Source of the DNA: Chloroflexota bacterium
Lineage (GTDB): Bacteria; Chloroflexota; UBA11872
Direction of reading: 5' to 3'
NCBI GenBank assembly: GCA_022821905.1
Contig: JAJECS010000020.1
Span: forward strand, 1-64,000
Length of the DNA: 64,000 nt
Part shown: piece by piece, positions 3,929-51,714 of the stretch
How the letters are laid out: each line of letters opens with the position of its first letter
Numbering within the stretch: position 1 is the first letter of the stretch
Position numbers and translations under genes: made by a program
The notes under the pieces: generated by a model
Databases searched by the model: none
What the model saw: the letters and a program-made list of their open reading frames with translations, nothing else
Told to the model about the DNA's origin: nothing

Positions 3929-4804
3929 ATGCACGGCGATCCCTCACCAGTCATCGACGCCCACACTCACGTCGTGCCCCCGGACGTCGCGGGCGATCGG
4001 GAACGCTTCCTCGAAGCCGATCTTTGGTTTCGTCGTCTTTACAGCAATTCCCGGCGCACCCTCGCCACCGCCGACGACCTGGCGCTGGAGATGGCCCGCT
4101 CGGGCGTGAACACCACCGTGGCTTTCGGCTTCGCCTGGCGCGACCCGAGCCTATGCGTGCACAACAACGACTACATCCTGGAGCAGGCCGCGGCGCACCC
4201 GGAGTCGCTCGTGCCGTTTTGCGTGGTCTCGCCGTCCGACCTCGAGTTCAGCATCGTCGAGATGGAGCGGTGTCGACGGAGGGGCGCGATGGGGGTGGGC
4301 GAGCTGTTTCCCGAAGGGCAGGGCTGGAACCTGAACGACCGCGGCGCCCTGCGCGAGTTCATCGGGGCGGTGCGGGGACTTGACCTGGTGCTCAACCTGC
4401 ACGTCAGCGAGCCGGCCGGTCACGACTATCCCGGCAAGGACTCAACCACGCCAGCAGCTATCTGGCCGCTGATCGAGATGGCGGGCGGCGAGGTGCCCAT
4501 CGTGCTCTCACACTGGGGCGGCGGCGCCGGGTTCTACGAGCTGATGCCGGAGGTGCGGGACCTCACCCGGCAGATCTACTACGACTCGGCGGCCAGCCAT
4601 CTGCTGTATCTGCCCCAAGTCTTCGACGTGATGGCGCGGTTGGCCCCAGGCCGGATCCTGTTCGGCAGCGACTTCCCACTGATGACGCAGCGTCGGGCAT
4701 TGCGTCACGTGCGGGCGGCGGGACTCGACGCCGAGACGATGGCGGCATTCCTGGGCGGAAATGCTCGAAAGCTGGGGTTGGGCGGCGCCTCTAGATTGAC
4801 ATAA
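3929..4804 (+). CDS. Amidohydrolase (TIM-barrel, amidohydrolase 2 family)
   Basis: This 291-residue metal-dependent hydrolase resembles the ACMSD / 4-oxalomesaconate hydratase branch of the amidohydrolase superfamily. It shows DAHTHV at residues 10-15 (metal-binding HxH), LNLHVSE near 153, LSHWGG near 190 and FGSDFP near 247, where the last Asp is the usual metal and base residue. It could be a decarboxylase or a hydrolase; the substrate is unknown. It starts 18 bp after the DXS-like gene and may be co-transcribed with it. The stop codon TAA is part of a TTGACATAA motif copy (4796-4804). Confidence 0.8.
   Translation: MHGDPSPVIDAHTHVVPPDVAGDRERFLEADLWFRRLYSNSRRTLATADDLALEMARSGVNTTVAFGFAWRDPSLCVHNNDYILEQAAAHPESLVPFCVVSPSDLEFSIVEMERCRRRGAMGVGELFPEGQGWNLNDRGALREFIGAVRGLDLVLNLHVSEPAGHDYPGKDSTTPAAIWPLIEMAGGEVPIVLSHWGGGAGFYELMPEVRDLTRQIYYDSAASHLLYLPQVFDVMARLAPGRILFGSDFPLMTQRRALRHVRAAGLDAETMAAFLGGNARKLGLGGASRLT
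4796..4804 (+). repeat. TTKACATAA motif copy 1
   Basis: TTGACATAA on the plus strand, overlapping the last codons and stop of the amidohydrolase gene. It is one of ten copies in the window, all six left of 42.2 kb being on the plus strand. Confidence 0.7.
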
Positions 4805-4823
4805 CGGACACTGCGCGAGTCCG
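4805..4823. terminator. Small hairpin between convergent genes
   Basis: The whole 19-base gap between two convergent stop codons is an inverted repeat, CGGAC and GTCCG around a 9-base loop. It could serve both genes as a weak terminator, but there is no T-run. Confidence 0.3.
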
Positions 4824-5693
4824 CTAGCGCGCCAGCTCCCGCTCGATCTCGGCCGTGAGGCGCGCCAGGTGGGTCGAGTCGTAGCCCACCTCGGCAGCCT
4901 GCTCCACGAGTTGACGCGTTTGCTCCAGCCCGGCGCGGTGCTGCTCCGAGCCGGGCTCCTCGCGCACGGCCACCTGCAGCGCGTCTCGCGCTTGGAGATA
5001 GGCCTGGCGCCCCTGCTCCTCCGGCGACTCTTCCTGCACCCCGACTCCGAGCAGCCGCTTGGTCAACGTGACCGCGGAGGCCGCGTCAGGCGCATAGCCG
5101 TCGGCGTTGATCTCGTCGGCGTAGCGCTGCGTGACCGGCGCGCCGCCGATAATGCACTGCACCTGGTCGTCGAGACCCGCCGCCTCGACGGCTTCGATCG
5201 TGCTGCGCATGTTCGTCATCGTCGTGGTCAGCAGCGCCGACATACCCACGATGTGCGCGCCCTGGCTCAGCGCTTCCTGGACGTATTCGTCGGGGTGGGT
5301 GTCGATCCCGGTATCGGTGACGTCGAACCCGGCGCCCTCAAGCATCATCGCCACCAGGTTCTTGCCGATGTCATGCAGATCGCCCCGGACCGTTCCGATC
5401 ACCACGCGGCCCAGCGGCTCGATCCCGGACTCGGTCAGCAGCGGTCGCAGAATGGCCATGCCGGTCTTCATGGCCCTGGCGGAGATCAGGACCTCCGGCA
5501 CGTAGTACTGGTTGGTGCGAAATAGCTCGCCCACGACGTCCATCCCGGGGATCATGCCGTCGTTGATGATCGCTCCGGGTGACACGTCGGCCTCAAGGCT
5601 GGCCTTGACGAGCCGGTCCACGCCCGGAGCATCACCCTTGATGATGCAGTCGCTCAGCTCTTGGAATGTCGCGTCGATGTCGATATCCGCCAT
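4824..5693 (-). CDS. Cobalamin-binding corrinoid protein with C-terminal extension
   Basis: This is a B12-carrying protein of the MtaC/MtbC/MttC type, which shuttles methyl groups between a substrate methyltransferase and a folate or thiol acceptor. Residues 1-90 form the methionine-synthase-like cap helices (MIPGMDVVGELF). The Rossmann B12 domain follows, with the cobalt-ligand motif DLHDIGKN near 125 and IIGGAPVTQRYADEI near 185. Such proteins are usually about 210 residues. This one has 289, with a charged helical tail from about residue 210. No cognate methyltransferase or reactivase is nearby, so its partner is unknown. It is divergent from rdgB across 187 bp. MetF and FchA at 34-35 kb could be downstream folate users. 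Confidence 0.85.
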   Translation of the reverse strand: MADIDIDATFQELSDCIIKGDAPGVDRLVKASLEADVSPGAIINDGMIPGMDVVGELFRTNQYYVPEVLISARAMKTGMAILRPLLTESGIEPLGRVVIGTVRGDLHDIGKNLVAMMLEGAGFDVTDTGIDTHPDEYVQEALSQGAHIVGMSALLTTTMTNMRSTIEAVEAAGLDDQVQCIIGGAPVTQRYADEINADGYAPDAASAVTLTKRLLGVGVQEESPEEQGRQAYLQARDALQVAVREEPGSEQHRAGLEQTRQLVEQAAEVGYDSTHLARLTAEIERELAR

Positions 5694-5880
5694 GGCACGT
5701 CCTGGGTCGTCGGGGGAATTCTTGCCGGCCCTCCGCCGCGTCCTCTACCACGTAGCGCGTACGGACCCGGTCCAGCCGCGAGCGTACCATCACCACGCCC
5801 CGCGCAACCGCCAATCGAGTCTCCCACGGTCGCACGGCGCCGTGCCACGATTGGCCGCCCGACATCGGTGAAAAAATCTC

Positions 5881-6510
5881 GTGCACCGACCCCTATCGTC
5901 CGCCGTCGTGCTCGCCAGCGGAAGTCCGCACAAGCTGGTCGAGTTTCGGCGGCTGTTTCTCGGCTCGCCGGTCCGGATCCTGCCCGCGACGGAGGTGGCT
6001 TCTCCGCCGAAGGTGGCAGAGACCGGCGCTACCTTCCTGCAAAACGCGCGACTCAAAGCCGTGGTCTACGCGCTGGCATGCCGTGCGTGGTGTCTGGCCG
6101 ACGACTCGGGATTGGCAGTTGACGCCCTGGGGGGCGCGCCGGGCGTGCGGTCGGCGCGCTACGCCGGACCCGATGCGAGCGATCACGCGCGCAATGCCAA
6201 GCTGCTGGCGGCCCTGGCCGACGTGCCCGATGCGCGGCGCAGCGCCCGCTTTCGATGCGCGGTGGCGCTGGCGACGCCGGACGGATCGGTCGTGTACACC
6301 GCCATTCGCAGCTGCGAAGGCCGAATCGCGCCTGCGCCGAGAGGCGGCCAGGGATTCGGCTACGACCCGCTCTTCATCGTCGGCACGGGGGATCGGACCA
6401 TGGCGGAGCTGACGCCCGACGAGAAAAACCGCGTCAGCCATCGCGGGAAGGCCGCCCGCGCGGCGCGACACTTCTTGGAAGAACGTCTGGCGACGCCGCC
6501 GTCCAACTGA
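5881..6510 (+). CDS. rdgB: XTP/dITP diphosphatase (RdgB/HAM1)
   Basis: This 209-residue house-cleaning enzyme hydrolyses dITP, XTP and related deaminated purine nucleotides to monophosphates. The family blocks are all present: ASGSPHKLVEF near 13, DDSGLAVDALGGAPGVRSAR near 79, GFGYDPLF near 160 and SHRGKAARA near 188. The start is GTG; conserved sequence begins about ten residues in, so it cannot be much later. A downstream GTG (5908) would give a slightly shorter protein and is possible. Confidence 0.92.
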   Translation: MHRPLSSAVVLASGSPHKLVEFRRLFLGSPVRILPATEVASPPKVAETGATFLQNARLKAVVYALACRAWCLADDSGLAVDALGGAPGVRSARYAGPDASDHARNAKLLAALADVPDARRSARFRCAVALATPDGSVVYTAIRSCEGRIAPAPRGGQGFGYDPLFIVGTGDRTMAELTPDEKNRVSHRGKAARAARHFLEERLATPPSN

Positions 6511-6581
6511 ACGCCGTCGTTTCGCGGCGCGCGGCACCCCCTTTGCTACGCTCCGGCGCGCCAGCGATCCCCCACCGACAC

Positions 6582-7253
6582 GTGCCTCCCGACGCCCGCG
6601 CCGTCCTCGTCACCGCCGCCGGATCACTTACCTCGCAAGCGATCGGACGACGCCTGGCGCGTGACGGAGCTTGCGTGGCGTTTGCCGCTGCCGACCGCGA
6701 GACCGCATGCGCGGCCGCTGCAGCCATCCGTGCCGACGGCGGCGAGGCGGCAGGATTCGAGATTGACGCGCGGGACTGGACGTCCACCCGGCGCGGGGTG
6801 CAAGAGGCGCGAGATCGTTGGGCGCGGCTAGACCTCCTGGTGAATGTGGTCGACGACCTGCCGGCGGCGCCCTTCCTGGCGCTGTCCGAAGACGACCTCA
6901 CCGAGTCATTCGACGCCGCCCTGGTGGGTCTCATGCACGGTGTGCGGGCGGCCACGGAGCAGATGCGGGCGGCGGACGCCGGATGCATCGTGCACGTGTT
7001 CCCCCTCGGCGGCGACGACCATGTGCTCGGCGGCGCGACGGCCGGCGCGGCGGAGATGCTCACGCGCGCCGCAGGCGTCGAGCTCGCCCCGCACGGAATC
7101 CGCGTCGTCGGAATCGCCGCCGCCAGCGTTCGCGACGACCCGGCGGCCATCGCCGACGCCGTGGCGTTCGCGGCCTCGTCCGACGCCAGCTACGTCACCG
7201 GCTCAACCCTGGTGATCGCGGAAAGGCACACCCAGCAGTGGATCGCCCGGTAG
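6582..7253 (+). CDS. Degenerate SDR-fold protein
   Basis: This protein of about 223 residues has the overall pattern of a short-chain dehydrogenase but lacks its functional residues. The cofactor loop that should read TGxxxGIG reads TAAGSLTSQAIG. The NNAG segment reads NVVDD. The YxxxK catalytic pair is replaced around GGATAGAAEML. The C-terminal segment SYVTGSTLVIAE is SDR-like. The frame is intact. A GTG at 6582 is my start; an upstream ATG would overlap rdgB deeply and is unlikely. It overlaps the following intact SDR gene by 16 bp, so the two are probably translated together. A non-enzymatic partner or structural subunit is one possibility; function is unknown. Confidence 0.6.
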   Translation: MPPDARAVLVTAAGSLTSQAIGRRLARDGACVAFAAADRETACAAAAAIRADGGEAAGFEIDARDWTSTRRGVQEARDRWARLDLLVNVVDDLPAAPFLALSEDDLTESFDAALVGLMHGVRAATEQMRAADAGCIVHVFPLGGDDHVLGGATAGAAEMLTRAAGVELAPHGIRVVGIAAASVRDDPAAIADAVAFAASSDASYVTGSTLVIAERHTQQWIAR

Positions 7254-7966
7254 CCATCGTCACCGGCGCCGCGCACGGCATCGGGCGCGCGTGCGCCCTG
7301 CGCCTGGCCGACGACGGCTTCTACGTCGCGGCCACGGACATCGACGACGCGGTGCACGGGCACGCCGCCGAAGGCCGGATCGAAACGCACGAGCTCGACG
7401 CCGCGGATATCGCCGCCGGCCACGCGCTGGTCGAAGATGTTGCGGGACGCCTCGGCGGCGTCGACGCGCTGGTCAACAACGCCGGATACACGGAGCGCCG
7501 ATCCATCGAAGAGCTAGAAACCGCCGAATGGCGACGCATGCTCGACGTGCACGTGCGCGGGCCTCTGTTTCTGATTCAGACCGTCGCGCGCGATCTGATT
7601 CGGCGCGGCGCATCTGGCGCCATCGTGAATATGACGTCCATCCGCGCCATCGTGGCCGAGCCGGGCCAGCTGCACTACTGCGCCGCGAAGGGCGCGCTCC
7701 ACGCGCTTGCGCCGGCGTTGGCGCCGGAGTTGGGGCGGCACAACGTGAGGATCAACAATGTCGCGCCGGGCCTGGTTGCCACACGCATGACGGCCAACGT
7801 GCGCGCCGACCCGGAGGCCCTGTCGCTGCGCCTGCCCCGCTTGCCGATGGCTCGCTACGCGGAAGCCGACGAAGTCGCGGCCTGCGTGGCGCATCTCCTC
7901 TCGAAAGACGCCCGAGCCATCTCCGGGCAAACACTGGCGGCCGACGGCGGGTATCTGGCTGGCTAA
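7238..7966 (+). CDS. Short-chain dehydrogenase/reductase (SDR)
   Basis: This 242-residue NAD(P)-dependent oxidoreductase has a complete SDR signature: TGAAHGIG near residue 9, NNAGYTERR near 79, the catalytic Ser in NMTSIRAI near 129, YCAAKGALHAL near 145, and the C-terminal ISGQTLAADGGYLAG. The start is a GTG lying inside the end of the preceding degenerate SDR gene. The pairing of one dead and one live SDR in overlapping frames suggests a heteromer, but that is inference. The substrate is not predictable. Confidence 0.85.
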   Translation: MDRPVAIVTGAAHGIGRACALRLADDGFYVAATDIDDAVHGHAAEGRIETHELDAADIAAGHALVEDVAGRLGGVDALVNNAGYTERRSIEELETAEWRRMLDVHVRGPLFLIQTVARDLIRRGASGAIVNMTSIRAIVAEPGQLHYCAAKGALHALAPALAPELGRHNVRINNVAPGLVATRMTANVRADPEALSLRLPRLPMARYAEADEVAACVAHLLSKDARAISGQTLAADGGYLAG

Positions 7967-8008
7967 GGCGGGTTCGGATTCGGTCGCGCCCATGCTCGAT
8001 ACTTGAGC

Positions 8009-17358: not shown

Positions 17359-18649
<1,291 letters not shown>

Positions 18650-26153: not shown

Positions 26154-28664
26154 GTGAGCACGACGACGCTGACACCGTTGCGGCGCCAATACCTTGACAT
26201 AAAACGTCAACACCCCGAAGCGCTCCTGTTCTTCCGCCTCGGCGACTTCTACGAGTTGTTCGACCGCGACGCCGAGCTCGCCGCCGAAGAGCTGCAAATC
26301 GTGCTCACCTCGCGCGAGTTCGGTCGCAGCGGTCGATCTCCCATGTGCGGCGTGCCCCACCACGCCGTGGCGGGCTATATCGCCAAGCTGGTCGAGGCCG
26401 GACATCGCGTGGCGGTGTGCGACCAGGTGACCGCCGCCGGCAATGGCCTGGTGGATCGCGCCGTCACCCGGGTCATCACACCGGGCACGGTGGTCGACGA
26501 GGACATGCTGCGGCCGCAGGCGAACAACTACCTGGCGGCCGTCGTCCCCGATGGCGATCGCGCCGGATTCGCCTACGCCGACGTGACGACCGGCGAGTTC
26601 GCCGCCACCGAGCTGCATGCCGGTCAACTCGGTCCCGAGCTCAGCCGGGTGGCGCCGCGCGAGACGCTGGCCTTCGGTGACGTCGACCTGTCGGGCGCCG
26701 TTACGGGCGCCGAATGGATGGCCGATCCCGCCTCGGCGGAGGAGGCGCTGCGCCGCCACTTCACAGTGCAAGACCTCGACGGACTGGGCCTCACCGACCG
26801 TCCGCACGCGTCGCGCGCCGCCGGTGCGCTGCTCGCCTACGTCACCGAGACGGACGCCAACGCGCTGCACGTGCTGACCGGCCTGCACGTCTACGGCGTG
26901 GGGACCTACATGGAGCTCGATCCCGCCACCCGGTCGAACCTGGAGCTTGAATCCGGGGGGCGCGCCGCGCGCCGCGACCACAGCGTGCTGGGCGTGCTCG
27001 ACCGCACCCGCACGCCGATGGGCGCCCGGCGATTGCGGCGGCACGTCGCCCGTCCGTCGCTCGAGCGCGAGGTCATCGAGCGGCGCCTGGATCTGGTCGA
27101 GGCGCTCGTCGACGACACCGACCGTCGGGCCGAGCTGCGCGACGCCCTGCGGTCCGTCGGCGACCTGGAACGGCTGGCCAACCGCGTGCTGCGGCGCACG
27201 GCAAACGTCAACGACGTCCGCCGTGTGTCCACCGCGCTCGACGGCCTTGAAACCGTTCGCCGAACGCTTGGCGGGGCAGCCATGGCGCTCGAACGCCTGT
27301 GCGCCCGCATCGACACCTGCGACGACGCGCAAGCCTTGATTGCGCGAGCCATTGACGACGGCGAGCGCACCATTCGCGCCGGCTACAGCGACGAGCTGGA
27401 TCGGCTGGCAGCCGGCGCCGGCTCGGCCAAGGCGTGGATCGCCGCCCTCGAGTCGCAAGAACGCGAACGCCTGGGGATCAGGTCGCTCAAGGTTCGCTAC
27501 AACCGCGTGTTCGGCTACTACATCGAGCTCGGCCGCGCCTACGCGGATCGCGTGCCGGACCACTACGAGCGCCGCCAGACGCTGGCCAACGCGGAGCGCT
27601 ACGTGGTCCCGGAGCTCAAGGAGCGCGAGGCCGAAGTCCTCAACGCCCAGGAGCAGATCGAAGCCCTCGAAGCCCTCCTGTTCGAGGAGGTGGTGGAGCG
27701 TCTTGCCGGATGGACGCCCGCCATGCTCGAATCGTCGGCGGCCCTCGCCGCCCTCGACGTCGCCGCGTCGCTGGCCGAGGTGGCGGTGCTGCAGGGCTAC
27801 GCGCGACCAACGCTGACCGACGAGGGACACATTGAAATCGAGGCCGGGCGTCATCCGGTCGTCGAGGCCAGCCAGACCGACCCGTTCGTACCCAACGACA
27901 CCCGGCTCGATCCCGACGATCGACAGATCCTGGTGCTCACCGGACCCAACATGGCCGGCAAGTCCACATATCTGCGCCAGACCGCGCTCATCGTGCTGCT
28001 GGCGCAGATCGGCAGCTTCGTGCCGGCCGACCGCGCCGAGATCAGCCTGGTAGACCGCATCTTCACTCGGGCAGGCGCCCGCGACGACCTCGCCGCCGGC
28101 GCCAGCACCTTCATGGTGGAGATGCTGGAGCTGGCCGCCATCCTGGCCCAGGCCACGCCTCGCAGTCTGCTGATTCTGGATGAGATCGGCCGCGGCACCA
28201 GCACCTACGACGGAATCTCCGTCGCGCAGGCGGTCGTCGAGCACTTGCACCATCACCCGCGGCTGCGCGCCAAGACGATCTTCGCCACGCACTACCACGA
28301 GCTGACCGCGGTGGCCGACATGCTGCCCCGCGTGCACAACGCCAACGTCGCCGTCGCCGAGCAGGGCGAGCGGGTCGTGTTCCTGCGGCGCATCGTGGAC
28401 GGGCCGGCTGACCGCAGCTACGGCGTGCAGGTGGCGCAGCTCGCCGGCTTGCCGCCGGCCGTGATCCGGCGCGCACGCGAGATCCTGGTCGAGCTCGAGC
28501 GGTTGGCGACCGGCGCCAAGGCGGTCCCGAACGTCCAGCTCACGCTGCTGACGCCCGAAGAGCATCCCGTCGTCAAGCGATTGCGCGACCTGGATCCCGA
28601 GCAGTTGAGTCCGCTGGACGCGCTGAGTCTGGTCTACGAGCTGCGCAACGAGGCCGACGCGTGA
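26154..28664 (+). CDS. mutS: DNA mismatch repair protein MutS
   Basis: MutS recognises base mismatches and small loops. This 836-residue MutS1 has the mismatch-reading FYELF near residue 35 (Phe-x-Glu), Walker A GPNMAGKSTYLRQ near 597, Walker B with DEIGRGTSTYDG near 676 and THYHEL near 711. The frame stays open to 26025, but GTG 26154 puts the conserved N-terminus (TPLRRQYLDIKRQHP) at residue 7. The LDIK codons contain a TTGACATAA copy using the ATA codon. The gene overlaps mutL by 4 bp. Confidence 0.96.
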   Translation: MSTTTLTPLRRQYLDIKRQHPEALLFFRLGDFYELFDRDAELAAEELQIVLTSREFGRSGRSPMCGVPHHAVAGYIAKLVEAGHRVAVCDQVTAAGNGLVDRAVTRVITPGTVVDEDMLRPQANNYLAAVVPDGDRAGFAYADVTTGEFAATELHAGQLGPELSRVAPRETLAFGDVDLSGAVTGAEWMADPASAEEALRRHFTVQDLDGLGLTDRPHASRAAGALLAYVTETDANALHVLTGLHVYGVGTYMELDPATRSNLELESGGRAARRDHSVLGVLDRTRTPMGARRLRRHVARPSLEREVIERRLDLVEALVDDTDRRAELRDALRSVGDLERLANRVLRRTANVNDVRRVSTALDGLETVRRTLGGAAMALERLCARIDTCDDAQALIARAIDDGERTIRAGYSDELDRLAAGAGSAKAWIAALESQERERLGIRSLKVRYNRVFGYYIELGRAYADRVPDHYERRQTLANAERYVVPELKEREAEVLNAQEQIEALEALLFEEVVERLAGWTPAMLESSAALAALDVAASLAEVAVLQGYARPTLTDEGHIEIEAGRHPVVEASQTDPFVPNDTRLDPDDRQILVLTGPNMAGKSTYLRQTALIVLLAQIGSFVPADRAEISLVDRIFTRAGARDDLAAGASTFMVEMLELAAILAQATPRSLLILDEIGRGTSTYDGISVAQAVVEHLHHHPRLRAKTIFATHYHELTAVADMLPRVHNANVAVAEQGERVVFLRRIVDGPADRSYGVQVAQLAGLPPAVIRRAREILVELERLATGAKAVPNVQLTLLTPEEHPVVKRLRDLDPEQLSPLDALSLVYELRNEADA
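26194..26202 (+). repeat. TTKACATAA motif copy 2
   Basis: TTGACATAA on the plus strand inside the 5' end of mutS, encoded through the codons GAC ATA AAA. Confidence 0.7.
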
Positions 28665-34463: not shown

Positions 34464-35468
34464 CTAGGCCACCGCGCTTTCCACGTCCGCCGCGACAGGC
34501 GCAAGTGCGGGAACCGGCGTCGGCCGGGGCAGCTCCAGCCCGGCGGCCTCCACGATGCGCGGCACGGCCTTTTCCCAGTCGATGGCCATCACGTGCACGC
34601 CGTGCACACCCTCGATCTCACGCACCTGCTCAATGATCTCCAGGCAGATGCGGACGCCTTCCGCGCGCGGCTTTCGAGCGCCGCGCATGCGCTGCATCAC
34701 GGCGTCGGGAACCTCCATCCCCGCGACCTTGAACTTCATGAACTCGGCCATGCGGGCCGACTTCAGCGGTCCCACGCCCGCCAGAATGTGCACCTGCTCG
34801 TGGATACCCTCATCGCGAACGTGCGACATCCACTCGGCAAACCGGTCCACGTTGAAGATCATCTGCGTCAGCGCGAACTGCTGTCCCGCGGCGGCCTTCT
34901 TGACCATGCGGAGCGGGCGGAAGCCATAGGGCGGCGCGAAGGGATTGGCCGCACCCCCGATGAAGAGCCGGAAGTCGCCCTTGATTGGATCACCCGCAGC
35001 ATTGCGATTCTCATCTCGGAGTTGCTTCAGCAAGCGCACGAGCTGCACGCCCTGCAGATCGAAGACCGGCTTGGCCATGGGATGGTCGCCCAGGACCAGC
35101 GAATCCCCGCTGATTGACATAAAATTGCGAATGCCAAACGCCTGCGCCGCAATGACATCCGATTGGATGCCCAGCCGATTCCGGTCGCGGCATGAGAGCT
35201 GCATGATCGGCTCGACGCCGCCCTGGCGGCAGAGCAGCGCCGCGCCCCAGTGCGACATCTTGAGCGCGGCGCCCTGGTTGTCCGTGCAGCTGGCCGCGTC
35301 CACGAATCCCCGCAGGATCTCCGCCTTCGCGCGGACATCGGCGGCATCGGGTCCCTTGGGCGGCCCAAGCTCGCAGGTGACGGCAAAGTGGCCGGCGTCG
35401 AGCACGGCCTGCAAATGGCTGTACGGCGGCCCTGGCGAGAGGCCGTCGACGGGAGGCGAATCAGACAC
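34464..35468 (-). CDS. metF: Methylenetetrahydrofolate reductase
   Basis: MetF reduces 5,10-methylene-THF to 5-methyl-THF on a flavin TIM barrel, supplying methyl groups for methionine synthesis or corrinoid methyl transfer. Visible segments are TCELGPPKGPD near residue 28 (catalytic Glu), SCRDRNRLGIQSDVIAAQAFG near 100, ISGDSL, FIGGAANPF, FALTQMIFNVDRF near 210 and HILAGVGPLKSA. The start GTG 35468 was preferred because upstream frame has no family similarity and would enter miaA. It heads the metF-fchA-folD operon and diverges from miaA over 81 bp. A TTGACATAA copy lies antisense inside the gene. Confidence 0.87.
   Translation of the reverse strand: MSDSPPVDGLSPGPPYSHLQAVLDAGHFAVTCELGPPKGPDAADVRAKAEILRGFVDAASCTDNQGAALKMSHWGAALLCRQGGVEPIMQLSCRDRNRLGIQSDVIAAQAFGIRNFMSISGDSLVLGDHPMAKPVFDLQGVQLVRLLKQLRDENRNAAGDPIKGDFRLFIGGAANPFAPPYGFRPLRMVKKAAAGQQFALTQMIFNVDRFAEWMSHVRDEGIHEQVHILAGVGPLKSARMAEFMKFKVAGMEVPDAVMQRMRGARKPRAEGVRICLEIIEQVREIEGVHGVHVMAIDWEKAVPRIVEAAGLELPRPTPVPALAPVAADVESAVA
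35114..35122 (+). repeat. TTKACATAA motif copy 3
   Basis: TTGACATAA on the plus strand, antisense within metF, where it encodes part of NFMSIS. Plus orientation despite a minus-strand gene. Confidence 0.7.
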
Positions 35469-35549: not shown

Positions 35550-36458
35550 GTGAATGTGTCGCTCGTGGTGTTGACGGGACCGACGGCCTCGGGCAAGACG
35601 GCCGCGGCGATGGCGCTGGCCGACAACTTCCCGATTGAAGTCATCTCGGCCGACTCGCGCCAGGTCTATCGCGGCATGGACGTCGGCACGGCCAAGCCCA
35701 CGGCCGGTGAGCGAGCCCGAGTGCCGCATCATTTGGTTGACATAATCGCCCCAAGCCAGTCCTACAGCGCCCACCGCTTCGTCCAGGACGCGCGCCTAGC
35801 CCTCGACGACATTGGCCGTCGCGGCCGCCTTCCGGTAGTGGTCGGCGGCACCGGGTTCTACATAAAGGCGCTTGTCGAGTCCGAGCTATTGGCCGGGGTG
35901 CCGCCGGACGACGAACTTCGGCTCGACCTGGAAGCGCTGCAGGCACGCGAGGGCCTGGCCGGCCTGGCCGCGCGGCTGGAGCGCGCGGATCCCAAGCGGG
36001 CCGCTGCCATCGACCGCGCCAACCCGCGTCGCCTGATTCGCGCCATCGAGGTTGCCGAAAGCCGCGGGCCTGCGGGCGATTCCCCAACATCGCTACCCAG
36101 CATGATCTTCGGCATCGATCACTCACCCGAGGTCCTGGCAGCCCGCATCGAGCGGCGCGTACACGCCATGTACGCCGGCTGCCTGATCCAGGAGACGCGC
36201 GCCCTGCTGGAATCCGGCGTTTCTCCGGACGCCCCGGCGCTCTCGGGCGTCGGCTACCGCGAAGCGGCCGCCGTGCTCGACGGGAGCCTCACGCTCGAAG
36301 AGGCCCGCCAGCGCACGGTCAGCCGCACGTGCCAATATGCCCGCCGCCAACGCACCTGGTTTCGCCATCAGCTTCCCGTACACTGGCGTACTCCAGAAAC
36401 AATCGTGGAGGCGCTCGCCGCGCAGCTGCGCGGATTGGATGAGGCGAGACGGTCCTGA
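35550..36458 (+). CDS. miaA: tRNA dimethylallyltransferase
   Basis: MiaA transfers a dimethylallyl group to A37 of tRNAs reading U-initial codons. The 302 residues show the P-loop GPTASGKT (residues 10-17), ISADSRQVYRGMDVGTAKP near 32, VVGGTGFYIKAL near 96 and SGVGYREA near 233. The start is GTG. It leads a plus-strand run with dapF, dapL and hflX. A TTGACATAA copy lies in the VDII codons, and a one-mismatch copy lies in FYIK; both use ATA for Ile. Confidence 0.94.
   Translation: MNVSLVVLTGPTASGKTAAAMALADNFPIEVISADSRQVYRGMDVGTAKPTAGERARVPHHLVDIIAPSQSYSAHRFVQDARLALDDIGRRGRLPVVVGGTGFYIKALVESELLAGVPPDDELRLDLEALQAREGLAGLAARLERADPKRAAAIDRANPRRLIRAIEVAESRGPAGDSPTSLPSMIFGIDHSPEVLAARIERRVHAMYAGCLIQETRALLESGVSPDAPALSGVGYREAAAVLDGSLTLEEARQRTVSRTCQYARRQRTWFRHQLPVHWRTPETIVEALAAQLRGLDEARRS
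35737..35745 (+). repeat. TTKACATAA motif copy 4
   Basis: TTGACATAA on the plus strand within miaA (codons for VDII, with ATA for isoleucine). A one-mismatch relative TCTACATAA follows at 35857-35865 in the same orientation. Confidence 0.7.
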
Positions 36459-39779: not shown

Positions 39780-41101
39780 CGGCGCGTGGCCGCATCCACA
39801 TCGGCGTCGCCAGCGGAAACATCACGCCCGCCATAGGCGTTGACCTTTCCGGCTTCAGTCCGCGCATGGGCGCCGCCCTGGGCGTACGGGACCCGCTGGA
39901 GCTGCACGTGCTGGTGGCCACCAGCGGCGGCTCCACTGTGATACTGGCGGCATTCGATCTCGTTGGGCTCACGCCGGAGTGGATCCAGCGGACCCGTGCG
40001 CGCGTCGGAGCGGCGACGGAAATCGCGCCGGACCATCAGATGTACGCCTGCACCCACGGGCACGGGGGACCGGAAACCGGCGTGCTGCCAACCATGGGCG
40101 ATCCGGACGACGACTATCTCGACGCGCTGACGGCCAGAACCGTCGCCGTGGCCCAAGCGGCCCTGGACCGGCAGACACGTGCGGAGATCGTTATCGGATT
40201 CGGATCCTCGTTCGCGGGGGTCAACCGCCGCTCCCGGGCCGTCGCCCCCGACGGGCCCGGTGACGGAGGGCCCGACGACATCGATTCAACGCTCATTGCG
40301 GCGCAGGCGCGCGACGGCGACGGCCGGTCCCTTGCCACGCTGGTGAACTACGGCTGCCACCCCACGAGCAGCCGCGAACGCATCTTCTCCGCCGACTATC
40401 CGGGCCACCTGCGGCGGCGCGTGCAGCTGATCACCGGCGCGCCGTGCATCTTCATCAACGGGGCCGGGGCAAATGCCAACCTGCGCTTCGCGGATCCCCG
40501 CGCACGCGGCTACGGCGAGGCCCGCGGCCACGGCCACTCACTCGCGCTGACGGCGGTCCGGGCACTCCAAACGGCGCGGCCGTCGGCCTCGACCACGGTC
40601 GCCGCGGCAACTTGCCCGGCGACGCTGGCACACGCGGAGTTGCCGAGCCCGGCCGAGGCACGTGCGCTGCGAGCGGAGGGCGCGGCGCGCGTCGAATCCG
40701 CCGTCAGCGACGTGATGCGCCGTCACTACCAGGCCTACGAGGTCGAGCACGCCGACCGCGTGCTGGCGGCCCACGCCAATCCGGCCTGGACCGGCCGGCA
40801 GGAGGTCGAGCTTCAGGCGCTGCGAATCGGCGACCTGGCCGTCGTTGCGACGCCGGTGGAGCTGTTTGCCGCGGATGGCCAGGCAATTCGGGCCGGCTCG
40901 CCGGCGCCGGCAACATTCGTGGCCGGATGGAGCAACGGCAACTGGGGCTACCTGCCCACCCGCCGCGTCGCCGCGCACGGCGGCTACGAAGCCGAAACGG
41001 CGCATCCCTGGTACCAACAGCCGGCGGCGTGGACTCCCGCAAGCGGCGACGCGCTGCGCGCCGCCGCGCAAGCGTCCCTGGCCGACGCCTTTAGCGCGTA
41101 A
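39776..41101 (+). CDS. Neutral/alkaline ceramidase-like protein
   Basis: This 441-residue protein resembles the N-terminal catalytic domain of neutral/alkaline non-lysosomal ceramidases (zinc amidases). Supporting segments are GVASGNITPAIGVDLSGF near 10, the His-rich ACTHGHGGPETGVL near 90, VNYGCHPTSSRERIFSADYP near 190 and FINGAGANANLRF near 220. No signal peptide is evident, unlike secreted ceramidases, and the C-terminal beta-sandwich is missing. Bacterial relatives are often unannotated hydrolases, so ceramide as substrate is uncertain. GTG start overlaps the hflX stop; its end overlaps the convergent recombinase gene by 11 bp. Confidence 0.72.
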   Translation: MTARGRIHIGVASGNITPAIGVDLSGFSPRMGAALGVRDPLELHVLVATSGGSTVILAAFDLVGLTPEWIQRTRARVGAATEIAPDHQMYACTHGHGGPETGVLPTMGDPDDDYLDALTARTVAVAQAALDRQTRAEIVIGFGSSFAGVNRRSRAVAPDGPGDGGPDDIDSTLIAAQARDGDGRSLATLVNYGCHPTSSRERIFSADYPGHLRRRVQLITGAPCIFINGAGANANLRFADPRARGYGEARGHGHSLALTAVRALQTARPSASTTVAAATCPATLAHAELPSPAEARALRAEGAARVESAVSDVMRRHYQAYEVEHADRVLAAHANPAWTGRQEVELQALRIGDLAVVATPVELFAADGQAIRAGSPAPATFVAGWSNGNWGYLPTRRVAAHGGYEAETAHPWYQQPAAWTPASGDALRAAAQASLADAFSA

Positions 41102-42119
41102 GCTCCTCGGGCGACCGGCGTCGGCGGCGAGCCCGCGCCGAGGCCTCGTCCACCGGCACGCTGAACCGATCGAAGACCTCGCGCAGATGCGCCGTTTCGT
41201 AGTGGGCGTAGATGCGCTTGGTCGTATCCGGCGAGGCGTGTCCCAGGATGTCCTGCACGTGCGAGAGATTCGCGCCCCGATTGAGCAGCGAGGTGGCCTT
41301 GAGGTGACGGAAGCCGTGGGTGGTGGCGGTCACTCCGACCGCCGCTCCATAGCGCTTGACGACCTTCCAGACCGACTGCGGCGAAAGACGGAGGCGTTCG
41401 CCGCCGCGGCCTGGATCGCGCGGCGCGCCGTGGTGGCGGATGAAGAGCGGCACGTAGGAATCGCGCCGCAGCCCCAGATAGGTGCGCAGCGCCTCGCGCG
41501 CGTCGTCGTCGAAGAAGACCACCCGCTCGCGCCGTCCCTTGCCGGTGATGAGTGCCTGCTGGGCATGACCGTCGTCAACGTCGCGGCGATCGAGTCGCGC
41601 CACCTCGGCGCGGCGCATGCCGGTGCCGTAGAGCACCTGCAGCAAGGCGCGGTCGCGGGCAACGCGCAGCCGCGTCTCCTCGCCGGCGTCGGCGGGGACC
41701 AGCGCGGGCAGCTCGTTCTTGACATAATCAACAATGATCGCCAGCGCATCGTCCACCCGCGGCGTGCGATAGCGCGGGGCGGCCCGCACCCCGTGGAGGC
41801 GCTCGACGGCGCGCTCCAGCGATAGCGTCGTCAGCGAACCTTCGCGCAGGCAATGACGCAGGAAGGCGCGGGCGGCGGCCACATACGTCTGAAGGGTCGC
41901 CTCACGCTCGGGCCCAAGCTCGTCGGCCAGCGCCAGATAGAAGCCTTCGAGCGCCCCGTCGTCCAGGCGGTCGAGCGTGATCTCGTCCGCCCCGGCGTCC
42001 TCACGCGCCCAGCGCATGAAGCGACGCAGACCGGTGCCGTAGGTGCTGCGGGTACGGGGCGATTTGGCCCGCAGGCTATCCAGGAAGCGTTCGGACGCGG
42101 CTTGAAGCGTTCGATCCAT
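41091..42119 (-). CDS. Tyrosine recombinase, XerC/XerD-like
   Basis: This site-specific recombinase of about 342 residues has an N-terminal core-binding (SAM-like) domain (FLDSLRAKSPRTRSTYG) and an intact catalytic domain: Arg in YGTGMRRAEVARL, Lys in TGKGRRERV, HGFRH (His-x-x-Arg), LGHASPDTTKRIY and the nucleophile Tyr in YAHYET. It is a single gene with no integrase-type neighbours, so a chromosome-dimer resolvase or stand-alone Xer role is likelier than a phage integrase. ATG 42119 fits a predicted transcription start next to it; ATG 42125 is the alternative. A TTGACATAA copy lies antisense inside it. A dif-like palindrome lies about 0.8 kb away. Confidence 0.87.
   Translation of the reverse strand: MDRTLQAASERFLDSLRAKSPRTRSTYGTGLRRFMRWAREDAGADEITLDRLDDGALEGFYLALADELGPEREATLQTYVAAARAFLRHCLREGSLTTLSLERAVERLHGVRAAPRYRTPRVDDALAIIVDYVKNELPALVPADAGEETRLRVARDRALLQVLYGTGMRRAEVARLDRRDVDDGHAQQALITGKGRRERVVFFDDDAREALRTYLGLRRDSYVPLFIRHHGAPRDPGRGGERLRLSPQSVWKVVKRYGAAVGVTATTHGFRHLKATSLLNRGANLSHVQDILGHASPDTTKRIYAHYETAHLREVFDRFSVPVDEASARARRRRRSPEELTR
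41719..41727 (+). repeat. TTKACATAA motif copy 5
   Basis: TTGACATAA on the plus strand, antisense within the recombinase gene (which encodes DYVK on the minus strand). Confidence 0.7.
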
Positions 42120-42127
42120 AGGCATTG

Positions 42128-42156
42128 ACTTTACATAACACAATCACAAATGTCAA
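42128..42156 (-). promoter_or_regulatory. Promoter of the tyrosine recombinase gene
   Basis: Read on the minus strand there is a consensus -35 TTGACA (42151-42156), a 17-base spacer and -10 TAAAGT (42128-42133). The expected start of transcription is near 42121, so the mRNA would start at or next to the ATG and be leaderless. The -10 overlaps a TTTACATAA copy (42130-42138). TTGAC at 42125-42129 and GTCAA at 42152-42156 form an inverted repeat that could bind an autoregulator. Confidence 0.6.
42130..42138 (+). repeat. TTKACATAA motif copy 6
   Basis: TTTACATAA on the plus strand, in the promoter of the recombinase gene. It is the last plus-oriented copy before the orientation switch. Confidence 0.7.
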
Positions 42157-42891: not shown

Positions 42892-42921
42892 TAGTAGAAC
42901 TAATGCGTATTAGTTCTACTA
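42892..42921. other. Perfect 13-bp-arm inverted repeat, dif-like or operator
   Basis: Arms TAGTAGAACTAAT and ATTAGTTCTACTA are separated by GCGT. It can also be read as two 11-bp arms around the hexamer TGCGTA (42893-42920), the 11-6-11 layout of dif. The core CTAATGCGTATTAG resembles the E. coli dif core ATAATGTATATTAT. Perfect symmetry would suit a single homomeric recombinase. The alternative is a repressor operator for the HD gene, since TATATAT (minus strand, 42887-42893) abuts the left arm. Confidence 0.6.
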
Positions 42922-43198: not shown

Positions 43199-43207
43199 TT
43201 ATGTAAA
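43199..43207 (-). repeat. TTKACATAA motif copy 7 (reverse)
   Basis: TTATGTAAA on the plus strand, i.e. the motif on the minus strand, between the palindrome and the enolase-superfamily gene. First copy after the orientation switch. Confidence 0.7.
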
Positions 43208-43223
43208 GTATTCGGTCCTGCCC

Positions 43224-46236: not shown

Positions 46237-46246
46237 GCCGTCGGTA

Positions 46247-47698
46247 CTAGTCGGCGGGGGTCCAGTTCACGTCCGGCGAGCGGTTGGCCGTCACTTCGTC
46301 CAGCCGGCGAACAGGCGCCGTCGTGGGCGCCGCGTGCAGCAAGTCCGGAGCCGCCTTGGCCTCGTCGGCCACATTGATCAGGGCCTCCGCGAACTGGTCC
46401 AGCGACTCGATCGACTCGGTCTCGGTCGGCTCGATCATCAAGGCCTCGTCGACGATCAGCGGGAAATACACCGTGGGCGGATGGACGCCGTAGTCAATGA
46501 GCCGCTTGGCGATGTCGGTGGTGCGGACGCCCAGCCGACGCTGGCGCGTTCCCGCGAGCACAACTTCGTGCATGCAGATGCGGTCATACGGGATGTCGAA
46601 GTGCGGCGCCAGTCGCGCCCGCAGGTAGTTGGCGTGCAGCACGGCGTCATCGGCCACCTCGCGCATGCCGTCGCGTCCGAGACTGCGAATGTAGGTGTAG
46701 GCCCGGATCAAGTTGCCGACGTTGCCGACATGCGAATGCACCCGGCCGATGCTGTCGGGACCCGCCGGCTCCAGCGCATAGCCCGCATCCGTCTTGACGA
46801 AACGCGGACCCGGCAGAAACGGCGCCAGGTGCGCCTGCACACCGAGCGCTCCGGCCCCTGGACCGCCGCCGCCGTGGGGCGTGGTGAACGTTTTATGTAA
46901 ATTCAAGTGCATCACGTCGATGCCCAGATCGCCCGGGCGCACCCGGCCCAGCATCGCGTTCATGTTGGCGCCGTCGCCATACACCTGCCCGCCGGCCGCA
47001 TGGACGCGCCGCGTGACGTCCAGGATTCGCTGCTCGAACAGGCCGAGCGTGGTCGGCAGCGTGAGCATCAGGGCCGCCACGTCGTCGTCGAGCTTGGCGT
47101 CCAGCTCGGCCAGGTCGATGTTGCCGTCGGGCCCCGTGCCCAGGGGTTCAACGCGCATCCCGGTCATCGTGGCCGTGGCGGGATTCGTGCCATGCGCCGA
47201 GTCTGGCACGAGCACCGTCGTCCGCCGCTCACCGCGACTGCGCAGCCATGCCTGGATGCAGAACAAACCGACCATCTCGCCCTGAGATCCCGCCGCGGGC
47301 TGCGTGGTGACCGTGGCGAAGCCCGCAAGCTCAGCCAGCACGGCTTCCAGATCGTGAATGAGCGCGAGCAGCCCTTGCACCGACGACTCGGGCTGGTAGG
47401 GATGCGGCTCGAGCAGTCCCGGCAGACGCGCCGTCACCTCGTTGATTTTCGGGTTGTATTTCATCGTGCAGGAGCCCAGCGGATAAATCGCCGTGTCGAT
47501 GCTGTGATTGCGCTGCGACAGGCGCACGAAGTGCCGCATGACGTCGATTTCCGAGACCTCCGGCAGATCGAGCGCCCCGCGGATCTGGCCCTCGGGCAGC
47601 ACCGCCGCTGGATCGACGGCGTCGAATTGCGGCAGCGGTGGTCGCACGCCGGGGCGGCCGGGACTGGCCAGCTCGAAGATCAACGGCTCGCTAGCCAC
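46247..47698 (-). CDS. gcvPB: Glycine dehydrogenase (decarboxylating) subunit 2
   Basis: This is the PLP-bearing half of the two-subunit P-protein of the glycine cleavage system. The 483 residues include the Schiff-base lysine in LNLHKTFTTPHGGGGPGAG near 270, VPDSAHGTNPA near 164 and YPLGSCTMKYNP near 71. It decarboxylates glycine and passes aminomethyl to GcvH lipoate. The start is GTG, overlapping gcvPA by 8 bp. A TTATGTAAA copy lies at the LHK codons, right at the active-site lysine. Confidence 0.95.
   Translation of the reverse strand: MASEPLIFELASPGRPGVRPPLPQFDAVDPAAVLPEGQIRGALDLPEVSEIDVMRHFVRLSQRNHSIDTAIYPLGSCTMKYNPKINEVTARLPGLLEPHPYQPESSVQGLLALIHDLEAVLAELAGFATVTTQPAAGSQGEMVGLFCIQAWLRSRGERRTTVLVPDSAHGTNPATATMTGMRVEPLGTGPDGNIDLAELDAKLDDDVAALMLTLPTTLGLFEQRILDVTRRVHAAGGQVYGDGANMNAMLGRVRPGDLGIDVMHLNLHKTFTTPHGGGGPGAGALGVQAHLAPFLPGPRFVKTDAGYALEPAGPDSIGRVHSHVGNVGNLIRAYTYIRSLGRDGMREVADDAVLHANYLRARLAPHFDIPYDRICMHEVVLAGTRQRRLGVRTTDIAKRLIDYGVHPPTVYFPLIVDEALMIEPTETESIESLDQFAEALINVADEAKAAPDLLHAAPTTAPVRRLDEVTANRSPDVNWTPAD
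46893..46901 (-). repeat. TTKACATAA motif copy 8 (reverse)
   Basis: TTATGTAAA on the plus strand, inside gcvPB at the codons for LHK. Confidence 0.7.
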
Positions 47699-49049: not shown

Positions 49050-49425
49050 CCACGAATGCGTCGTAGGCCTCGGCGTCCAACAAATCCTCGACGGCCGTGG
49101 CGTGGTCATCCGGACGCACGCGGATGAGCCAGCCGTCCCCCATCGGGGAGCTGTTGACCAGCTCGGGCGCGCCGTCGAGCGCTTCGTTGACCCCGATGAT
49201 GTCCCCGGCCACCGGCGCGTAGAGCGGCGACACGGCCTTCACGGACTCAACGGTGCCGAATTCGTCCATCACCTCGACGTGGAGGCCTACAGCCGGAAGC
49301 TCCACATACACCACGTCGCCCAATTCATCGGCGGCATAGGGCGTGATGCCCACGATGACATCATCGCCGTCAAAGCGAGCCCATTCGTGCTCGCGCGAGT
49401 AGCGTGCATCGCTGGGAAACTTCAT
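49033..49425 (-). CDS. gcvH: Glycine cleavage system H protein
   Basis: This 130-residue lipoyl carrier moves the aminomethyl group between P, T and L proteins. The lipoylation lysine is in FGTVESVKAVSPLYAP near residue 60, and the start MKFPSDARYSREHEWARF is typical. It is the first gene of gcvH-gcvPA-gcvPB. No gcvT is present in the window. The 111 bp before it, shared with divergent mazG, show no clear glycine riboswitch. Confidence 0.96.
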   Translation of the reverse strand: MKFPSDARYSREHEWARFDGDDVIVGITPYAADELGDVVYVELPAVGLHVEVMDEFGTVESVKAVSPLYAPVAGDIIGVNEALDGAPELVNSSPMGDGWLIRVRPDDHATAVEDLLDAEAYDAFVDELLA

Positions 49426-49536
49426 AGGAACCCGTCTACCTGAAGTGGCGCGCGTGGGCCCGCTTGGTCGACGGAGCGCGCCACGGTGCGCGGCAAGACC
49501 GACGCCTAGAATAGCCCAGCCACCCTGCTTGCGTTT

Positions 49537-50820
49537 GTGAAGCTCATGACATTGGTCCGGTCGTGCACGGTCGTCTTCGTGGGCGTCGGCGAGCCTGCCG
49601 CGCTGACGCTCCGAGCTCGTCGGGCGATTGGTGAGGCGGACGCGCTCCTCAGTTGGATCAACCCGCCAATAGGACTTGTGGATCGGCCCGTGATGCGGCT
49701 GGCCACGCCGTCGCGCCAATCGTGGGAGTCAACGCTGCTTGGCCTGGGGACAGCCGACGTGACCTACCTGGCCCCGGGTTACGGACCCGACGACGACCCG
49801 GGGGCGATCGTCGTTCGCGAAGTGCTGGCGGACGCGGGAATCGAGGTTGCAGTGGTTGGTCTGGACGGACCTCAGGCATCCGGGCCGGCGATGATTGGCC
49901 CTGCCGCCGAGTCGTGGCGACCCGACCCGGCGCTGACGGCCGTGGTCCGCGGCGTGCGAGACGCCTCGGAGCTCGAGCGCTGGCGGCGGACGATTGCCGG
50001 GGAGTTTGGGCAGGACGTCCAACTGCGCGTGCGCGCGTGGAATGCAACCACCTGGCAGGACCTCGGCGATCGATCGGCGGACTTCCCCCTGACGCTGCGC
50101 GCGGAGCCGACCGAGGTCTCGCGCGAGCGATCGGTCGCCCGTCTGCGCGAGGTCTTCGAAACGCTGCGGGGACCCGAGGGTTGCCCGTGGGACCGCGCCC
50201 AGACCCACACCTCGCTGCGCAAGTATGTCTTGGAGGAGGCCGCGGAAGTCGTCGACGCCATTGACGACGGCGAGCCGGGAGACCTTTCCGGTGAGCTCGG
50301 CGACCTCCTGGCCAACATCGTGCTCCACGCCGAAATCGCGCGACAGGCGGAGGACTTCGCCTGGCCGGACGTCGTCCAGGGCATCACCGCCAAGATGGTG
50401 CGCCGCCATCCGCACGTCTTTGGCGAGCAGACCGCGCACCGGATATCCGAGGTCGCCGCCATCTGGCAGCACGCGAAACGCGCCGAAGCTGGGAGAGACG
50501 GCAAGGCGATCCGGGATGGCGCGCTGCCCGCACTCGCGCAGGCGGCCAAGATCTCCGCGAGTCTGGATGGCGGTGCGGCGTCGGACGGTCTGGCGCCAGA
50601 CGCCGCGGCTTCGCTTCGCTGGTATCGGGATTCAGCAATCGCCGCCGACCACGCCCGCGCCAGCGACGCGCTGCTGGGTCTGGCACTCGCCGCCAAAGCT
50701 GCCGGAGTAGATCCGGAGTTGGCGCTTCGCGACGCGCTGCGGCGGATTCGCGCGCGGCTCCCGCCGATCGAATCGGCGCAGGCCGACGGTTCGTCGGTTG
50801 AGAATCATTATGTCAAATAA
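49537..50820 (+). CDS. mazG: MazG-family NTP pyrophosphohydrolase with degenerate methylase-like N-terminus
   Basis: The C-terminal half is MazG, an all-helical NTP pyrophosphatase: LRGPEGCPWDRAQTHTSLRK near 210, the metal-binding EEAAEVVDAIDDGE near 231, ELGDLLANIVLHAEIA near 249 and KMVRRHPHVFGE near 285. The N-terminal about 190 residues resemble a tetrapyrrole methylase (VVFVGVGEPAALTLRARRAIGEADALL), as in YabN-type fusions, but the SAM-binding GDP-type loop is not recognisable. The second MazG repeat is reduced. GTG 49537 or ATG 49546 can start it. A TTATGTCAA copy overlaps the last codons before the stop. Confidence 0.88.
   Translation: MKLMTLVRSCTVVFVGVGEPAALTLRARRAIGEADALLSWINPPIGLVDRPVMRLATPSRQSWESTLLGLGTADVTYLAPGYGPDDDPGAIVVREVLADAGIEVAVVGLDGPQASGPAMIGPAAESWRPDPALTAVVRGVRDASELERWRRTIAGEFGQDVQLRVRAWNATTWQDLGDRSADFPLTLRAEPTEVSRERSVARLREVFETLRGPEGCPWDRAQTHTSLRKYVLEEAAEVVDAIDDGEPGDLSGELGDLLANIVLHAEIARQAEDFAWPDVVQGITAKMVRRHPHVFGEQTAHRISEVAAIWQHAKRAEAGRDGKAIRDGALPALAQAAKISASLDGGAASDGLAPDAAASLRWYRDSAIAADHARASDALLGLALAAKAAGVDPELALRDALRRIRARLPPIESAQADGSSVENHYVK
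50808..50816 (-). repeat. TTKACATAA motif copy 9 (reverse)
   Basis: TTATGTCAA on the plus strand at the 3' end of mazG, just before its stop codon. Confidence 0.7.
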
Positions 50821-50913
50821 GTCTCGACTGATGCGACTGTCGGGGTCGCCACGGCCAGCGCCCCCAATCCCTGCCACCATTGGCGGCATGCACTCCGCGG
50901 CACTCGAGGCCTG

Positions 50914-51678
50914 ATGCAGCGCCTCGTCGCCCTGATCAGCGACTTCGGGATCACCGATTCCTACGCCGGCCAGATGGAGGCCGCCGTGCTGGCCCATGCC
51001 CCGGACGCTCGCGTGGTGTCAGTCACGCACGGAATTCCCCCGCAAGACATCGCATTTGGCGCGGTCGTCGCGGCGGCCTCGCTGGAGCGCCTGCCGCCAG
51101 GCGCGATCCTCGTGGCGGTGGTCGATCCCGGCGTGGGCAGCCGGCGACGCGGGCTGATCGTGCGCGCCGCGTCGCGATGGCTGGTGGGCCCCGACAACGG
51201 GCTCCTGACGGGCCATGACGCCATCGAGGGCATCTGGCATCTCGACCGGTCCGAGTACTGGCATCCCGATCCTCACCCCACGTTTCATGGCCGCGACGTG
51301 TTCGCCCCCGTCGCGGGGCACCTTGCGCGCTACGTGCGACCGGACGCGATGGCGACCCCGATCGACGATCCCTTGCCCGCGCCCGGAATCCTGGCCCGGT
51401 CGCAAGGCGGCAGCGTGGAGGGCCGCGTCGTGCACATCGATCGCTTCGGCAATCTGATCACCAATATCCCGAGCGCAGGCGTACGCACGGTTGCGCAGGG
51501 CGTCGTGGAGCTCCGTGATCGGCGCATCGGCGGCGTGCAGCCGACCTACGGATCGGGTAGGGATCCGGTGGCCGTGGTGAGCAGTCTTGGGCTGTTGGAA
51601 ATCGCGGTGCCCGGCGGCAGCGCCGCAACGTCGCTGGGCGCGAAATGCGGCGACCCGGTAGGGCTGCGGCCGACGTGA
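50914..51678 (+). CDS. SAM hydroxide adenosyltransferase (SAM hydrolase family)
   Basis: This 254-residue protein belongs to the DUF62 / SAM hydroxide adenosyltransferase family, which splits S-adenosylmethionine to adenosine and methionine and is related to fluorinase and chlorinase. Family motifs are LISDFGITDSYAGQM near 6, HGIPPQDIAFGA near 39, VVDPGVGS near 70, GPDNGLLTG near 91, FHGRDVFAPVAGHLA near 127 and DRFGNLITNIP near 176. The role in vivo is poorly defined. It stands 93 bp after mazG and 58 bp before an M50 protease gene. Confidence 0.9.
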   Translation: MQRLVALISDFGITDSYAGQMEAAVLAHAPDARVVSVTHGIPPQDIAFGAVVAAASLERLPPGAILVAVVDPGVGSRRRGLIVRAASRWLVGPDNGLLTGHDAIEGIWHLDRSEYWHPDPHPTFHGRDVFAPVAGHLARYVRPDAMATPIDDPLPAPGILARSQGGSVEGRVVHIDRFGNLITNIPSAGVRTVAQGVVELRDRRIGGVQPTYGSGRDPVAVVSSLGLLEIAVPGGSAATSLGAKCGDPVGLRPT

Positions 51679-51705
51679 TGCCGCGGTTCGTGCAGGCACG
51701 ACGCA

Positions 51706-51714
51706 TTATGTCAA
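51706..51714 (-). repeat. TTKACATAA motif copy 10 (reverse)
   Basis: TTATGTCAA on the plus strand in the short gap between the SAM hydrolase and M50 protease genes. Confidence 0.7.

Follow-up and report, generated by a model that had tools for sequence, protein, structure and literature searches.

What does a short DNA word do when its copies all point toward one place on a chromosome? The question is raised by a stretch of 64,000 nucleotides from a Chloroflexota bacterium (GTDB lineage UBA11872; assembly GCA_022821905.1, contig JAJECS010000020.1, positions 1 to 64,000), referred to here as the window. The window contains copies of the 9-mer TTKACATAA, which occurs in two variants, TTGACATAA and TTTACATAA. 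The original prediction, made from the window alone, listed ten copies, six on the plus strand and then four on the minus strand, and every coordinate and strand proved to be right. It interpreted them as a polar chromosome-organising signal, and our results support this, since the array converges on a dif-like site. We favor the interpretation, with a probability of roughly 57%, that the copies are polar XerD half-sites that provide directional terminus signalling, foremost for SMC unloading, with a XerD-class protein as their reader.

We first give the abundance of the motif. The window had 10 copies, whereas 100 dinucleotide shuffles averaged 0.02 and never exceeded 1, an excess of about 500-fold, and TTGACATAA ranked first among the 9-mers of the window by a Markov over-representation score. 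An earlier hand estimate of about 0.1 copies by chance was too generous to chance. The whole genome (G000; 2.95 Mb in 31 contigs) carried 52 copies, 27 plus and 25 minus, against 2 copies of the reversed control. These copies were found on 13 contigs: seven contigs had one copy, five had 3-10 copies in the same orientation (30 in all), and the window's contig, C15, had six plus copies followed by nine minus copies. The single orientation switch that had been predicted was located between 42138 and 43199, and it was the sole switch inside any contig of this genome.

The polarity was seen along a whole chromosome in G006, which is assembled as one contig of 3,002,743 bases. All 44 of its 44 copies pointed at a dif-like site at 2,442,548. 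The copies were all plus from 864,678 to 2,440,746 and all minus from 2,442,916 round to 116,829, and dnaA, at 800 kb, was situated in the gap where the orientation reverts. Copy density climbed toward dif, the counts per 150-kb bin being 6, 4, 5, 2, 2, 3, 1, 2, 0, 0 and 1 on the left and 8, 4, 3, 1, 2, 0, 0, 0, 0 and 0 on the right. In G005, which has 55 copies, the orientation switched at the dif-like site on contig C13, and the opposite switch occurred once, on C2. G029 had one switch, on its own contig C2, with no exception among the 51 of 66 places listed.

We then surveyed the class. Families f1, f2, f4 and f5 had 28-66 copies per genome (32 genomes), f3 had 3-13 (9 genomes) and f13 had none (2 genomes). 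Polar blocks were also present in G019, G020, G034, G052, G043, G047 and G063, and in families f8, f17 and f12; they were weak in f20. Copies without polarity were found in G045 (46 copies) and G061 (OY282441.1; 9 copies). Exceptions to polarity comprised three copies in G020, the mixed contig C3 of G034 (four plus, two minus), and many copies in G021 and G058. Nothing in G055 (25 copies) contradicted polarity, but its assembly is highly fragmented and carries little weight. In G047 (1.52 Mb, one contig, 91 copies), 42 copies left of the switch pointed toward it and 1 away, and right of the switch, up to 1.11 Mb, 28 pointed toward it and 0 away. From the control rate, 12.8 away copies were expected in this polar part, where 1 was observed; wrong-way copies thus seem to be avoided there. 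The last 400 kb of this genome (G047:C1:1115000-1521287) was mixed in orientation, with 11 plus and 9 minus copies, and is perhaps an acquired or unconstrained region. Reductive dehalogenase genes were observed near both ends of the contig.

The original prediction had proposed GC skew as the comparison for motif orientation, which was of little use. In stretches round the switch of G006, G000, G029, G034, G043, G047 and G052, GC skew, taken on the strand that reads toward dif, ranged from -0.031 to +0.026. Being weak and of either sign, GC skew would locate the terminus poorly here.

The motif was conserved in relatives. In three congeners, to which the window is 87-90% identical, 27 of the 28 aligned window copies were intact (G005 10/10, G003 8/9 and G002 9/9). 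In the same alignments, 32-41% of all 9-mers, and 33-36% of those with equal AT content, were intact. In each genome, up to four copies had an intact core even though their flanks were only 50-70% identical. Unbiased scans near the switch returned TTGACATAA as the top enriched polar 9-mer in G006 (11/0), C15 (12/0), G029 (10/0), G052 (7/0) and G034 (7/0); it was not first in the scan of G043, where TTKACATAA scored 4/0 in 140 kb. Position 3 of the core in f1 was G or T and position 2 was sometimes C; other changes were nearly absent, TCGACATAA being the exception among single-base variants. Gapped words were used to look for a second polar motif, with unflipped arms as the null. The ACATAA core was clear of the null in G029 (5.1 vs 3.9), other words were slightly above it in G006, C15, G052 and G043, and nothing exceeded it in G034 and G047. 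Poly-G words in G006 came from two runs. There was no consistent partner arm six bases beyond the copies (in G052, T at +7 in 5/7), which indicates that the copies are not whole dif sites.

The site at the switch of the window is a perfect inverted repeat. As shown in Table 1, it can be read as 13-nt arms with 4 nt between them; alternatively, it consists of 11-bp arms and a 6-bp centre, the dif format. In the window's family, each chromosome has one such pair of inverted arms around a centre, located at the switch close to a Xer gene. With up to 3 mismatches allowed, a single occurrence of the arms was found in each of 18 of the family's 19 genomes and none in 42 others; the one family genome lacking them is 76% complete. 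The neighbouring tyrosine recombinase, here called dX, had a relative (E <= 1e-20) in 18/19 family genomes, one in each, and this was split in two in G010 and G013. When 30 Xer loci were scanned, this dif-like site was found in 17, with motif copies on both sides in 14 and on one side in 3; every copy at all 17 pointed at the site. The 24 closest named relatives of dX (L202-L225, among the 80 loci listed) were all labelled Chloroflexi or Chloroflexota.

Table 1. Motif copies, dif-like site and adjacent recombinase in the window
Feature	Position	Strand	Context
TTGACATAA copy	4796..4804	+	points at dif; TAA is the stop of open reading frame (ORF) 3929-4804
TTGACATAA copy	26194..26202	+	in mutS, sense
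TTGACATAA copy	35114..35122	+	in metF-like gene, antisense
TTGACATAA copy	35737..35745	+	in miaA, sense
Tyrosine recombinase (Xer, dX)	41091..42143	-	dif-adjacent, within 1 kb; R-K-H-R-H-Y present
TTGACATAA copy	41719..41727	+	antisense in the dif-adjacent xer gene (DYVK coded there)
TTTACATAA copy	42130..42138	+	5' end of the xer ORF next to dif; last copy before the dif-like site from the left
dif-like site	42892..42921		perfect inverted repeat TAGTAGAACTAAT GCGT ATTAGTTCTACTA, at the polarity switch
TTTACATAA copy	43199..43207	-	between ORFs; first right of the dif-like site
TTTACATAA copy	46893..46901	-	in gcvPB
TTGACATAA copy	50808..50816	-	3' end of mazG-like gene
TTGACATAA copy	51706..51714	-	between ORFs of at least 150 aa

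Second Xer proteins were also found at the switch in G020, G034, G052, G058 and G063, as in the window's family, and those that were aligned retain R-K-H-R-H-Y. Candidate dif sites at the switches of G034, G043, G052, G058, G063 and G021 had 2-3 mismatches in their arms, and chance could account for some of these candidates; there was no convincing candidate at the G047 switch. At position 92 of L137 from G020 (f2), we observed a dif-like site with perfect palindromic arms, ACTAGATATAA TGAATA TTATATCTAGT, which resembles archaeal dif. The dX protein also matches the archaeal XerA model. The switch of G029 carries a perfect 15-nt inverted repeat with a 6-nt centre (G029:C2:609616-609651; L110:19616-19651), whose arm, AATAAGTTCCGAGAA, is unlike that of the window's family.

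As had been predicted, copies lie in genes of both strands (mutS and miaA in sense; the metF-like gene and the recombinase in antisense), and some force the rare ATA codon, GAC-ATA codons being found in mutS and miaA. The antisense copy in the xer gene corresponds to codons 139-143, coding DYVKN. This peptide was common to the three aligned f1 Xer proteins and missing in seven from other families, and the DNA signal may dictate the protein sequence at this position.

We compared the motif with published dif sites. Read as its reverse complement, TTATGTMAA, the motif gives the XerD arm of such sites. The dif ends of B. subtilis and F. alni are TTATGTAAACT and TTATGTCAAGT (Kono 2011, PMC3025954, in excerpt), whose reverse complements are AGTTTACATAA and ACTTGACATAA, respectively. 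Many proteobacterial arms are TTATGTTAAAT and its relatives (excerpt of PMC2731167). Compared with the dif sequences in the excerpts of both papers, the motif has the XerD-arm sequence TTATGTNAA. The original prediction had mentioned a resemblance to the dif arm TTATGTTAA in passing; this was a better lead than its comparison with FtsK-orienting polar sequences (KOPS), the motif being identical to the XerD arm in the dif sites of both B. subtilis and F. alni. At the switch of G043, the arm ACTGTACATAA of the candidate dif site differs from the motif by a single core mismatch. No other 28-mer in the 140 kb of this genome that were scanned had a core with 0 or 1 mismatch, a centre of 6 and the partner TTAT.

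We next examined the XerD-class protein. Residue numbers are those of E. coli XerD, in which K172 has a catalytic role. Searches with a XerD model covered 21 genomes, 14 classed as array-bearing and 7 as others. G011 and G025 were classed as array-bearing by copy number, polarity in G011 being seen only near dif, and G058 was included in spite of its polarity exceptions; the residues of G063 were read by eye. A XerD-class protein was found in 14/14 array-bearing genomes (207-356 bits), and all 14 kept a [TS]RQG[FL]W stretch. In the window's genome its gene lies away from dif (G000:C19:34579-35412). The residue aligned to K172 was not lysine in 12/14; lysine was kept in G043 and G047. When the G000 protein was aligned to E. 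coli XerD (1A0P), lysine was replaced by asparagine. The equivalents of H244 or R148 were also lost in five genomes (G019, G029, G025, G034 and G058). Between G000 and G005, 284/294 residues were identical and the ratio of nonsynonymous to synonymous substitution rates (dN/dS) was 0.055, which indicates that the protein is constrained and not dying. Among the 7 other genomes, G044 gave no XerD match at 1e-12. The best matches in G045 and G030, the only ones looked at, were weaker (156 and 196 bits) and lacked RQGFW, and G048 and G060 had a XerD with GRESVW or ARESVW.

The results above are observations, from which we infer XerD binding to the copies and any effect on SMC or FtsK. In the proposed mechanism, the copies would be isolated, oriented XerD-type half-sites lining both chromosome arms, densest near dif, with the end that would face the dif centre turned toward the terminus. 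The XerD-class protein, whose gene lies away from dif, is their likely reader. In the window's family, dX, acting on the palindromic dif, has probably assumed dimer resolution there; XerD has lost its catalytic lysine yet retains a putative DNA-reading stretch. Bound XerD would most likely be a directional terminus signal for DNA-translocating complexes. By analogy with XerD at the B. subtilis terminus, its foremost role would be to unload SMC arriving from the origin; there, XerD is described as unloading SMC near ter (Karaboja 2021, as cited in excerpts of PMC12322038, PMC8242196 and PMC8357415). On the simplest account, Chloroflexota would use an enlarged polar set of XerD half-sites for such terminus signalling, and XerD would be left with this one job in lineages whose dimer resolution passed to a different recombinase.

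Several observations weigh against this mechanism. By manual count, only about 7/11 positions agreed between the motif and the dif arms in the window's family (AGTAGAACTAA), and the 28-mer scan that found the G043 candidate revealed no motif-like dif arm in the stretches of G047, G052 and G029. A XerD with TRQGFW was present in G061 and also in G026, whose 13 copies we do not class as an array, so XerD is not sufficient for an array. G043 and G047 have arrays, yet their XerD keeps the lysine, and in 3 of the 12 losses (G052, G058 and G063) the lysine gave way to arginine, which is a mild change. In G019 and G029 the second Xer is located away from the switch, and a take-over of dif by an adjacent recombinase therefore does not cover every family. 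Finally, the B. subtilis XerD sites (TTATGTAAA) are likened to the motif by sequence and terminus enrichment, and polarity is known here for Chloroflexota alone.

FtsK offers other explanations of the same geometry. KOPS are read by the gamma domain of FtsK, which also activates XerD (excerpt of PMC5357621). The motif might be an AT-rich equivalent of KOPS, read by gamma and steering FtsK toward dif. Its orientation from ori to ter, its convergence on dif and, in G006, its rising density toward dif are as in KOPS, and an FtsK gamma-domain match was found in 56/61 genomes. The KOPS role also looks vacant: of five genomes, four showed no bias toward dif in the E. coli-type KOPS GGGNAGGG (toward/away: G006 18/32, C15 9/12, G029 10/10, G052 13/16), which in G006 leaned away. 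It leaned toward dif in G043 (18/9), where FtsK may use another signal. The motif is not a G-rich octamer of the GGGNAGGG or GAGAAGGG type, and its match to the XerD arm would be a coincidence under this explanation. The gamma recognition helix takes the forms GRSKAQK, GNKLARR, GATKANR, GYPKAAR and GYNRAAR among array-bearing families, while the motif stays constant. It is strongly diverged in f1, f2 and f4 (GRSKAQK, GNKLARR and GATKANR; e.g. L105:4837-7011) compared with a GYxRAAR-like helix elsewhere. This divergence seemed at first to follow the motif and would favor a KOPS equivalent, but reading by gamma lost weight because G052, G043 and G034 have an ordinary helix and the same polar motif. 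The gamma domain of G052 contains IGYNRAARxIE, as in the solved domains 2j5p and 2ve8, which we take to come from E. coli and P. aeruginosa. The polar 9-mer ranked first in G052 is nevertheless TTGACATAA. The helices of f3 and f5 are nearly alike, yet f3 has few copies. The geometry of the KOPS comparison thus holds, but gamma is probably not the reader, since its helix does not track the motif; a KOPS equivalent is possible but rather unlikely. Alternatively, XerD bound to a half-site could orient or stop FtsK in one orientation. The activation of XerD by gamma, the solved structure of a XerD-FtsK gamma fusion (5dcf) and an array densest near dif would fit such a signpost. We consider it improbable, given that gamma is diverged in f1 and that the C-termini of XerD-like proteins from the window's family (4 sequences) lack the RQ-QQ FtsK contact motif named in the excerpt of PMC5357621.

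A polar fork trap of the Tus-Ter or RTP type, which forks would pass toward dif and which would block them beyond it, agrees with the orientation and terminus enrichment of the copies. Against it, the copies equal Xer arms, and a fork block should forbid both orientations in one region, as seen in the last 400 kb of G047, a genome whose origin was not located; we regard a fork trap as very unlikely. TTGACA is similar to the -35 hexamer of promoters, and codon or composition effects might also generate a frequent word. Such ordinary causes are practically negligible here, as polarity is strict whatever the gene strand, copies lie inside genes on both strands, and the core extends to ATAA and includes TTTACATAA, with single-base variants almost absent in f1.

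Returning to the XerD half-site explanation, we compared the array with known systems. The B. subtilis XerD sites for SMC unloading, as described in the excerpts cited above, are alike in their XerD-class protein, half-site sequence and terminus enrichment. In contrast, the Chloroflexota have 28-66 polar copies per genome along the arms (f1, f2, f4 and f5), and the catalytic lysine is gone in 12/14 genomes. KOPS and the SpoIIIE recognition sequences (SRS) share polarity, convergence on dif and a higher density near dif, whereas our motif is AT-rich, equals a Xer arm and does not co-vary with the gamma helix. The single-recombinase systems (XerS/difSL, XerH/difH and archaeal XerA/dif) resemble the window's family in their 11-6-11 site and adjacent recombinase; they differ in that the array copies are isolated half-sites with no consistent partner arm and that a second, degenerate XerD is retained. 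Archaeal short polarized sequences (ASPS) are likewise a polar signal around dif not tied to FtsK (excerpt of PMC5357621), but they are 4-mers, whereas the motif is a rare 9-mer with clear Xer identity. No report of such an array was present among the matches listed in the literature on KOPS and Chloroflexi, TTGACATAA, XerD and SMC, or XerD and Chloroflexi.

Beyond a few model species, it is still open how SMC and FtsK recognise the end of the chromosome. The broader claim suggested by our comparisons, which we advance tentatively and at slightly less than even odds, is a chromosome-wide polar addressing by solitary XerD half-sites. Its reader would be a XerD that has decayed to a catalytically impaired DNA-binding protein in many Chloroflexota, with the second job of XerD, terminus signalling and SMC unloading, naturally split from recombination, and with a directional signal independent of FtsK KOPS. 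If this is true, the polar half-sites read by XerD would extend far from dif, and half-site reading alone would keep a decayed XerD under selection in some lineages. The array would supply a code at sequence level, together with a candidate for its reader and a map across the genome, which can be tested with one purified protein. The motif may also serve as a terminus landmark for draft genomes in which GC skew is too weak to help.

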